Positions 5,791-11,092 of a DNA stretch of 13,290 nt are shown piece after piece. The notes beneath the pieces are model-generated. The model was not told where the DNA came from. It did no database searches and was given only the letters and a program-made list of their open reading frames with translations. Source of the DNA: an uncultured Clostridia bacterium (GTDB lineage Bacteria > Bacillota > Clostridia > Oscillospirales > Ruminococcaceae). The position numbers and the translations under genes were made by a program. The first letter of the stretch is position 1; the number at the start of each line of letters is the position of its first letter. Location of the stretch: contig CALDJI010000282.1 in assembly GCA_937901805.1 (NCBI GenBank), forward strand, positions 1-13,290, given 5' to 3'.

Positions 5791-5892
5791 AAGCGCCCTC
5801 CTACTGTAGAAATTGTATCCCGGATGAAACAATGATCTCTGCTTTTTACACATCCGTCCCGCTTATGGAATCATACGCGGGATCACATAGTT

Positions 5893-5931
5893 ATTATATC
5901 GCAAATTCTATTTTTTTACTAGGAAATAGAA
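5893..5931 (-). promoter_or_regulatory. Amidase promoter region with an operator-like inverted repeat
   Basis: TATAAT is present on the - strand at 5893-5898, with a poor -35. Over the -35 position lies a perfect 8-bp inverted repeat, TTCTATTT (5906-5913) and AAATAGAA (5924-5931), with a 10-bp spacer. A weak -35 under a dyad suggests control by an activator or repressor. The predicted leader is about 95 nt. The regulator is not identified. Confidence 0.5.
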
Positions 5932-5937
5932 GGGGCG

Positions 5938-6031
5938 CTTTCGTCCACAAACAGAAAGGGAATATACAGCCTATCCATGGGCTGTTTTCCGGAAGCACTC
6001 CACAGGAAGAGGGAAAACACATGGACGAAAG
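5938..6031. other. Gene-free segment with a nested inverted-repeat structure
   Basis: A perfect 10-bp inverted repeat, CTTTCGTCCA (5938-5947) and TGGACGAAAG (6022-6031), encloses two further hairpins: CAGCC/GGCTG (5967-5971 with 5980-5984) and TTTTCC/GGAAAA (5985-5990 with 6012-6017). Together they can fold as a three-way junction in RNA from either strand. Reading frames through here have no recognisable protein features. Function unknown. Confidence 0.5.
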
Positions 6032-6078
6032 AGAGCCGACGTCATCCCGGACGCCGGCGGAGAAAAGGGCGCCGGAAA

Positions 6079-6297
6079 GCAAATGCCGGCAGGCACTTGC
6101 AGCGGTTCTAAAACCGCATATGGGATACCGTGGTTTCCTCCAATGCAGTCTCGCCCCGAAAATAGGATTGAAAGTTGGAAATTCTTCTGTTATTTTCCTG
6201 TTTTCAATAAACCCTTGCATACTTAGAAGGGAATCCTTTACAGCTGTCATTGGAAATGGCTGAAAGGGGCCTTCTTTATAAAAATGTGCTTTTATAA
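6079..6297. other. Hairpin-dense noncoding block
   Basis: The stretch 5854-6451 has no convincing gene; open frames on both strands give peptides without domain features, ribosome sites or good codon use. This part holds five consecutive inverted repeats. They are 6079-6100 (8 of 9 pairs, 4-nt loop); 6102-6117 (GCGGTT/AACCGC); 6167-6208 (ATTGAAA plus GGAAA pairing with TTTCC plus TTTCAAT around a 3x3 internal loop); 6225-6275 (19 pairs in four short helices); and 6276-6297 (TTATAAAA/TTTTATAA). This density suggests a structured RNA or an interspersed repeat element. Confidence 0.45.
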
Positions 6298-6314
6298 TAC
6301 GAGACGGCAAATTA

Positions 6315-6347
6315 AAAACTGGAACTTCCAGCAGAAGTTCCAGTTTT
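6315..6347 (-). terminator. Intrinsic terminator downstream of the LysR gene
   Basis: A perfect 14-bp stem, AAAACTGGAACTTC (6315-6328) and GAAGTTCCAGTTTT (6334-6347), with a 5-nt loop. On the - strand it ends in TTTTTAATTT, a usable T-tract. It lies about 105 bp past the stop of the LysR-type gene. The + strand T-run is shorter. Confidence 0.85.
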
Positions 6348-6451
6348 ACATGAAAATAATCTTTTCTGCGTGCTTTGGGATCTTTTCCGCTTCTGCACTT
6401 TAGTCTGTGCCGCGGCCTATCTTGCGAAATACAAGTCTTTGCCGGCGTCCA

Positions 6452-8977: not shown

Positions 8978-9745
8978 ATGTATCGTATTCTCCGCAAGAA
9001 AGTCCTCAACCCGACTGTCACGCTGATGGATATCGACGCCCCCTTGATTGCCAAAAAAGCAGAGCCAGGGCAGTTCATTATTCTGAGAGTGGACGAAAAC
9101 GGCGAGCGAATCCCTTTGACCATTGCGGATTTTGATCGCGAAAAGGGAATTGTCACGATCATTTTCCAAGTCGTGGGCGCCACCACAGAAAAACTCAACC
9201 ATCTGGAAGAGGGCGACTCCCTGCACGATTTTGTCGGCCCGCTCGGCGTTCCTTCCCATGTGGAAGGCCTGAAAAAAGTCGCTGTCATCGGCGGCGGCGT
9301 CGGATGCGCCATCGCCTACCCGATCGCAAAGAAACTCCACCGTCTGGGTGCGGAAGTCCATTCTGTGGTTGGGTTCCGCAACAAGGATCTTGTCATTTTG
9401 GAAGATGAATTCAAAGCTGCAAGTTCGAAGTTCGTCATGATGACGGACGATGGTTCCTATGGAGAAAAGGGCCTTGTCACAGATGCGCTCAAAAAGCTGA
9501 TTGAAAGCGGCGAGAAGTATGATGAAGTCATCGCCATCGGCCCACTCATCATGATGAAGTTTGTATGCAAACTCACCAAAGAGTATGGCATCAAGACTGT
9601 CGTCAGCATGAACCCAATCATGTTCGACGGCCATCTCGTGGACTTTGACGAGGCCATGGAACGCGCTACCATGTACAAGGATTTTGAGCGCCACCAGTAT
9701 GAAGAAACCTGCAATCTGTTCAAGGGGGTAAAAGACAATGCCTAA
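8978..9745 (+). CDS. nfnA: NfnA-like small subunit (FAD/NAD(P)-binding) lacking the [2Fe-2S] segment
   Basis: Relative of the small subunit of NADH-dependent ferredoxin:NADP oxidoreductase, also annotated sulfide dehydrogenase beta or PyrK-like. FAD-binding barrel: PGQFIILRVDENGERIPLTI (30-49) and DFVGPLG. NAD-binding domain: VAVIGGGVGCAIAYPIAKKL (101-120), then GFRNKDLVILEDEF, TDDGSYGEKGLVTD, VIAIGPLIMMKFV. Family members of about 280 residues then read NPIMVDGTGMCGxCRV, a stretch ending KFACVDGPE, and FDGHLVDFDE. Here Met215 is joined directly to Phe216 (SMNPIMFDGHLVDFDE), so about 27 residues with all cluster ligands are absent. The protein is 255 residues and its only cysteines are 110, 197 and 245. 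The frame is intact and conservation on both sides is high. Start at ATG 8978 after GAGGAAAGG. Overlaps nfnB by 8 bp. Confidence 0.9.
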   Translation: MYRILRKKVLNPTVTLMDIDAPLIAKKAEPGQFIILRVDENGERIPLTIADFDREKGIVTIIFQVVGATTEKLNHLEEGDSLHDFVGPLGVPSHVEGLKKVAVIGGGVGCAIAYPIAKKLHRLGAEVHSVVGFRNKDLVILEDEFKAASSKFVMMTDDGSYGEKGLVTDALKKLIESGEKYDEVIAIGPLIMMKFVCKLTKEYGIKTVVSMNPIMFDGHLVDFDEAMERATMYKDFERHQYEETCNLFKGVKDNA

Positions 9746-11045
9746 TATGTCCCTGAAAAAAAATCCAATGCCCGTTCAAGAGCCGACGGTGCGCAATCAC
9801 AACTTTGAAGAGGTCGCCCTGGGCTATACCCCGGAACAGGCGGTTGACGAGGCGAATCGCTGCCTTGGCTGTAAAAACAAACCCTGCGTCGGCGGATGCC
9901 CGGTCGCAATCGATATCCCGGCATTTATTGCTAAAATCAAGGAGCAGGATTTTGAAGGCGCTTACCAGATCATCAACAAATCCAGCTCCCTCCCCGCTGT
10001 CTGCGGCCGTGTCTGCCCGCAGGAAACCCAGTGTGAATCCAAATGCGTCCGCGGTATCAAAGGCGAGCCGGTTGCTATCGGCCGCTTAGAGCGCTTTGTC
10101 GCCGACTGGCATATGGCGCACAACACCGAAGCTCCGGTAAAACCGGAGCCAAACGGCCACAAAGTCGCCATTGTCGGCGCCGGTCCTGCAGGATTAACCT
10201 GCGCCGGCGACCTTGCAAAGCTGGGCTATGAAGTTTCCATCTTCGAGGCGCTCCATCTGGCCGGCGGCGTGCTGGTCTATGGAATCCCGCAGTTTAGGCT
10301 TCCGAAAGAGATTGTCCAGAAGGAAATCGACAACCTCAAAGCCATCGGTGTCCACGTGGATACCAACGTTGTCATCGGCAAAACCATCACCATTGACGAG
10401 CTCTTTGAAGATGGCTTTGAAGCGATCTTTGTCGGATCTGGCGCCGGACTTCCGAATTTCATGAAAATTCCGGGCGAAAACCTCAAAGGCGTGTATTCCG
10501 CCGTCGTTGGCGGCGGAAACGTGGCCATGGACGCCGCCCGCTGCGCGAAGAGATTGGGCGCGGAAAATGTCTACATCGTGTACCGCCGTTCAGAAGACGA
10601 ACTTCCGGCCAGAAAAGAGGAAGTTGAACACGCAAAAGAAGAGGGCATTATCTTTAAACTCCTCAATAACCCGGTCGAAATCCTTGGCGACGAGCATAAA
10701 TTTGTCAATGGTATGAAGTGCATTGAGATGGAACTCGGCGAACCGGACGCTTCCGGCAGACGCCGTCCCATCCCGAAGGAAGGCTCGGAATTCGTTCTGG
10801 ACGTAGACTGCGTCATCATGTCCATCGGTACCTCTCCGAACCCGCTGATCAAATCCACCACCAAAGGCCTCGACACCAACAAATGGGGCTGTATCGTGGC
10901 AAATGAGGAAACCGGGCAAACCTCCCGCGAGGGCGTATTTTCCGGCGGCGATGCCGTCACAGGCGCTGCAACGGTTATTCTCGCCATGGGCGCTGGCAAA
11001 AAAGCTGCCGCCGCTATGGATGAGTACATTAAAAACAAACACTAA
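9738..11045 (+). CDS. nfnB: NfnB/GltA-like flavoprotein large subunit with an internal deletion
   Basis: Relative of the NADPH-binding large subunit of Nfn, often annotated glutamate synthase (NADPH) homotetrameric or small chain. Eight cysteines for two [4Fe-4S] clusters are present: 42, 45, 50, 54 (CLGCKNKPCVGGCP) and 89, 93, 99, 103 (CGRVCPQETQCESKC). Then come FAD motif VAIVGAGPAGLTCAGDLAKL (143-162), LVYGIPQFRLP, NADPH motif VVGGGNVAMDAARCAKRLGA (256-275), and the final FSGGDAVTGAATVILAMGAG. Family proteins of about 464 residues have some 29 residues (beginning NEFLTRVN) between GVYSA and VAVVGGGN. Here Ala255 runs straight into Val256, giving 435 residues. No GOGAT large subunit is nearby, so Nfn is the better name. 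AAGGGGG precedes ATG 9738, which overlaps the nfnA stop. Confidence 0.9.
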   Translation: MPNMSLKKNPMPVQEPTVRNHNFEEVALGYTPEQAVDEANRCLGCKNKPCVGGCPVAIDIPAFIAKIKEQDFEGAYQIINKSSSLPAVCGRVCPQETQCESKCVRGIKGEPVAIGRLERFVADWHMAHNTEAPVKPEPNGHKVAIVGAGPAGLTCAGDLAKLGYEVSIFEALHLAGGVLVYGIPQFRLPKEIVQKEIDNLKAIGVHVDTNVVIGKTITIDELFEDGFEAIFVGSGAGLPNFMKIPGENLKGVYSAVVGGGNVAMDAARCAKRLGAENVYIVYRRSEDELPARKEEVEHAKEEGIIFKLLNNPVEILGDEHKFVNGMKCIEMELGEPDASGRRRPIPKEGSEFVLDVDCVIMSIGTSPNPLIKSTTKGLDTNKWGCIVANEETGQTSREGVFSGGDAVTGAATVILAMGAGKKAAAAMDEYIKNKH

Positions 11046-11052
11046 CCTATTG

Positions 11053-11092
11053 AAAAACCCCGGATGCTGAAGTTCAAGCATCCGGGGTTTTT
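11053..11092. terminator. Bidirectional terminator between nfnB and pncB
   Basis: AAAAACCCCGGATGCT (11053-11068) pairs perfectly with AGCATCCGGGGTTTTT (11077-11092), 16 bp with an 8-nt loop. T-tracts exist on both strands. It lies 7 bp past the nfnB stop and directly beside the pncB stop at 11094-11096, so it ends both convergent transcripts. Confidence 0.95.

Follow-up and report, generated by a model that had tools for sequence, protein, structure and literature searches.

The window analysed here, a single contig of 13,290 bases, carries two genes of an Nfn complex in the order nfnA-nfnB (Table 1). The nearest loci by protein were from Clostridia, and many of them bore animal gut record titles. 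NfnA of the window has kept the FNR-type FAD/NAD-binding body, as judged by PRK06222.1, the Pfam domain NAD_binding_1 and a fold match to 5jca_S. NfnB matched PF14691 (E = 1e-45), and its translation holds both [4Fe-4S] motifs, RCLGCKNKPCVGGCPV and GRVCPQETQCESKC. These were searched for as RCx2Cx4Cx3CPV and, without its tail, GRVCPQExQCx3C, as given in the available part of PMC6405883. The gene order, the FNR-type body of NfnA and the cysteine motifs of both [4Fe-4S] clusters resemble those of the NfnAB/NfnI enzymes of Thermotoga maritima (4YLF/4YRY) and Pyrococcus furiosus (5JCA). Unlike these enzymes, the window copy has an NfnA without the Asp(Cys)3 [2Fe-2S] segment and an NfnB that is 28 residues short.

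Table 1. The nfnA and nfnB genes and the two deletion junctions, in positions of the window
Feature	Position	Strand	Description	Basis
nfnA	8978..9745	+		NCBIfam PRK06222.1 (E = 2.4e-98, best stretch ends at residue 218); no PF10418 in the Pfam scan
Deletion junction 1	9622..9623	+	81 bases encoding IDGTGMCGGCRLTVGGETKFACVDGPD absent	Protein and DNA alignments to relatives
nfnB	9738..11045	+	GltA/GltD-like subunit, 435 aa, internal 28-aa deletion	TIGR01316 gltA, two stretches, 526.8 bits
Deletion junction 2	10499..10502	+	84 bases encoding ANEFLTRTNLMKAYREGSSTPIEHAKNV absent, just before the GGGNVAMD loop	

At the first junction, the codon ATG (9620-9622, Met215) is directly followed by TTC (9623-9625, Phe216), and the protein reads SMNPIM joined to FDGHLVDFDE. 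The earlier note had proposed that NfnA lost its whole [2Fe-2S] segment at this point, and the comparison with an intact protein of 282 aa, P0002, bore this out. Exactly IDGTGMCGGCRLTVGGETKFACVDGPD (27 aa, 81 bases) is gone after residue 215 of the window NfnA, and the other 255 residues show no mismatch. Two further relatives, P0003 and P0004, differ from the window NfnA outside the gap by one and six residues, respectively, and the cluster motif is present in all three relatives. The missing piece contains DGTGMCGxCRx10CV with the Asp(Cys)3 ligands, which is the NfnA [2Fe-2S] motif in the available part of PMC6405883, and the window NfnA is without it. In P0002, this piece aligned without gaps to the same motif of the solved P. 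furiosus NfnI (5jca_S). The remaining cysteines of the window NfnA (110, 197 and 245) were all aligned with cysteines of P0002. Thus, there is no replacement cluster, and the claim that all four ligands were lost also stands. The blastn pieces against relatives overlapped at 9623-9631, and the precise point of the break may therefore shift within a repeat.

A second deletion, absent from the finding of the earlier note, lies 0.88 kb downstream in nfnB. Compared with P0122 (463 aa), the window NfnB has lost exactly 28 residues (84 bases), and the other 435 residues are identical. Outside the gap, P0123 and P0124 have one and ten mismatches, respectively. The break falls after residue 254 or after residue 255, an ambiguity of one codon. 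Alignment to relatives and to T. maritima 4ylf_B showed that ANEFLTRTNLMKAYREGSSTPIEHAKNV sits just N-terminal to the GGGNVAMD loop. The segment presumably links the FAD domain with the one that binds NADPH, and with the 28 residues before the loop gone, the FAD and NADPH-binding domains of the window NfnB are not complete. The note's remark that the rest is well conserved is right for NfnA (255 of 255 residues against P0002) and wrong for the complex, given the 84-base deletion in NfnB. This deletion also undercuts its picture of an otherwise intact Nfn whose flavins are merely uncoupled. The NfnB relatives (119 others among the matches listed) are 452-620 aa long, against 435 aa in the window. 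Three NfnB sequences from ENA, P0140, P0141 and P0142 (587, 620 and 561 aa), have internal in-frame duplications and occur on one or two contigs each. They may be rearranged assemblies, which would suggest that rearranged nfnB sequences do turn up in such collections.

Each of the two window proteins occurs on one contig only, the one of 13,290 bases. The intact P0002 occurs on 10 contigs and the intact P0122 on four; P0003 and P0123, also intact and with one mismatch each, occur on two contigs each. In a full-length search, PF10418, which we take to be the iron-sulfur-binding domain of the dihydroorotate dehydrogenase B type, was present in 119 of 119 other NfnA proteins among the matches listed. 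A search scored on residues 186-250 only should give a high rank to any NfnA that shares the gap. The window NfnA came first in it, and PF10418 was present in all 119 others (best 120 of 7998 scored). Therefore, neither search gave a second NfnA with the same gap among the 119 others in the matches listed, and this speaks against a working Nfn without the cluster. At the DNA level, the cluster segment was intact by pattern in 95 of the 100 loci scanned, and the joined-up gap pattern was found in 0 of the 100. In L078, the segment was found by reading the sequence, which gives 96 intact loci; they are not 96 independent genomes, as some share a genome (e.g. L082 and L094), and 80 of the loci were picked for similarity to an intact query. 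Four loci retrieved with a different window stretch (L097-L100) had no match to the segment patterns. The top identity to P0002 was 89% among the 80 loci listed, and closer genomes may exist. The earlier note had named intact homologues at this locus in close relatives as grounds against its finding, and intact homologues are what the relatives examined here (the listed proteins and loci) have. Viral contigs searched with a 24-base pattern of the window gave 0 matches. A literature search with broad terms found no NfnA without the cluster in the titles or abstract openings of the matches listed.

DNA of the same species was sought among genomes, and the nearest match was genome G067, with 87% identity in the nfn region. 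Its locus (L094) is the closest DNA found, with 79-87% identity in five blocks, and nfnA and nfnB are both intact in the aligned DNA. The two stretches are colinear, except that L094 has an extra 1.45 kb or so after nfnB. Across the 13 window genes compared, window-side gaps exceeding one base were confined to nfnA (81 bases) and nfnB (84 bases). The sole other gap was one base at the nfnB stop codon, and no frameshift was found in the 13 genes. The YlxR-like ORF at 21-362 was left out of this set; it has gaps of 2 and 7 bases at 328 and 344, which precede its likely internal start, as judged by eye. Apart from the 1.45-kb stretch, intergenic window-side gaps were 20 bases at most. The ratio of synonymous to other codon differences from L094 was 73 to 6 in nfnA and 170 to 10 in nfnB. 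As the differences are mainly synonymous, constraint probably acted on both genes up to the appearance of the gaps. G067 has a single nfnA; the only other match, at 35% identity, is probably PyrK, and no second Nfn copy was seen in this genome.

In relatives, the edges of the first deletion are formed by IDG codons on the left and FDG codons on the right, an in-phase direct repeat. Of 95 relatives, 11 have 8 of 9 bases in common between the two edges, and the remaining 84 have 5-7. This fits the proposal of the earlier note that the segment was deleted between short direct repeats, although the lost triplet in relatives reads IDG (e.g. ATC/ATT GAC GG) rather than the VDG it had expected. Since the codons and their phase agree at the two edges, joining across IDG and FDG preserves the reading frame with no need for selection. 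For the window species itself, the length of the repeat is taken from its relatives. The edges of the second deletion are two Ala codons, with a shared run of 0 bases in 41 of 69 matches in relatives, 3 bases in 21 and 4 bases in 7. With the repeat weak or absent, the frame may have been kept here by chance (1 in 3). A hairpin with a 9-bp stem at 10496-10518 spans the second junction in the window. The z-scores for folding against shuffled sequences were -1.16 and -0.45 at the window junctions and, for comparison, -1.38 in L043 over the intact nfnA region. As these scores are unremarkable and folding is little stronger than shuffled, we rejected a hairpin-driven deletion as a proven cause.

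We consider both gaps to be an artefact of assembly or amplification, or a minor haplotype, in one contig, with a probability of about two in three. In this reading, the nfnAB operon is normal in all other respects, and sequencing, amplification or assembly would most likely be the step at which it lost the two stretches, unless the gaps mark a minor haplotype; the species as such would have an intact Nfn. The contig is probably metagenomic, and the joins at both junctions would be technical. The first deletion would have used the IDG/FDG repeat; for the second, with a weak repeat or none in relatives, we leave the cause open. This reading is favoured because the proteins identical to the window outside the gaps (P0002 and P0122) are intact, and because the window proteins are confined to one contig and the gaps are seen in none of the listed relatives nor in L094. 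Against it, the chance that two unrelated artefacts both keep the frame is about 1 in 9. The in-phase repeat would explain the frame at the first deletion, but hardly at the second, and a frame kept twice favours a real, selected change, which is a small point. The lack of frameshifts in the 13 genes makes the contig look clean, which also counts against an artefact, and the junctions could be real.

A real and very recent loss of function, in which deletions broke nfnA and nfnB in one strain, comes second, and we regard it as rather unlikely. The loss would have occurred by slipped mispairing at the short repeat in nfnA and by a cause left open in nfnB, with the frame kept by the repeat in the former and by chance in the latter. 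The direct repeat at the edges of the first deletion, the hairpin across the second junction, the lack of frameshifts and the single Nfn copy seen in the nearest genome found are all consistent with it. However, the edges of the second deletion share no run of bases in most of the matches in relatives, and folding at the junctions is not much above that of shuffled sequences. The order of events is a further difficulty. As there are no amino-acid differences from P0002 and P0122, both gaps must be newer than any such difference, and two large deletions in adjacent genes before a single amino-acid change would be an unlikely sequence. The earlier note had argued that nfnA does not look like a decaying gene, which lends function no support, since flanking protein identical to the intact form makes the deletions look new or artefactual.

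According to the available parts of three papers (PMC6405883, PMC8097209 and PMC12921514), the first electron in Nfn leaves the bifurcating flavin of NfnB through the [2Fe-2S] cluster, which passes it towards the NADH-side flavin of NfnA. Without the cluster, the branch to the NADH-side flavin should be cut, and the deletion in NfnB would put the NADPH side in doubt too. A variant Nfn that functions without the cluster, e.g. as an NAD(P)H:ferredoxin or diaphorase-type enzyme with the NADH-side flavin uncoupled from the bifurcating one, could draw on both frames being open, on the unchanged flanks and on both gaps being multiples of three. Relatives that depart from bifurcation are also in print. 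According to the available part of PMC8097209, NfnII of P. furiosus is a non-bifurcating relative whose NADH side is no longer part of bifurcation; there, the NADH site is blocked by a loop and the residues that bind NAD are altered, and this part of the paper describes no deletion of the cluster segment. A Sud protein of Giardia, by its description in the available part of PMC6405883, is, like the window copy, Nfn-related and without the [2Fe-2S] binding domain. However, it is eukaryotic, its authors thought it unlikely to catalyse the Nfn reactions, and the window gap is known from one contig only.

Structure prediction was also considered. The closest solved chain of the intact P0002 is 5jca_S (E = 9.4e-100, residues 1-269 of 282 aligned), and the intact P0122 aligned to a solved NfnB subunit over residues 6-460 of 463. 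The AlphaFold2 model of the window NfnA also had 5jca_S as its best solved match, so the body is still predicted to take the FNR-type fold, which would favour a functional variant. Its block pLDDT was 77-97 up to residue 210 and 34-44 after the junction, and the NfnB model was poor (mean pLDDT 51.9); these values count against function but weigh little, as the alignments behind them had few rows (34 and 26) and there was no intact control. The low pLDDT of these models is no evidence of misfolding in either subunit, and we rejected structure prediction as a test of function for the same reasons.

A functional Nfn without the cluster is highly improbable, as the second subunit is damaged too, with 28 residues lost before the GGGNVAMD loop, and slimmer still is the chance that, in some strain, both subunits, shortened in frame, still form a working NAD(P)H oxidoreductase that does not bifurcate and has no [2Fe-2S] cluster. 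If it were functional, it would offer a test of whether the Nfn flavins work without their bridging cluster. Most likely, this is an error of assembly or amplification, or else a very recent breakage, rather than a new enzyme type. When a cofactor segment is cleanly missing in frame from one contig only, near-identical relatives and the partner subunit should be compared before a new type of enzyme is put forward.

Two other differences between the window and L094 were observed. The extra stretch of about 1.45 kb in L094, at window positions 11075-11084, was considered as a third deletion and rejected. It holds an ORF of 361 aa (L094 3528-4613, minus strand) between nfnB and the nicotinate phosphoribosyltransferase gene, with the stretch CPYCKRRKI, and is therefore read as an insertion in L094. 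Between the start of the acetamidase-like ORF and the LysR gene, the window region 5816-6450 aligned poorly to L094 and has about 245 bases more than it, spread over several gaps.
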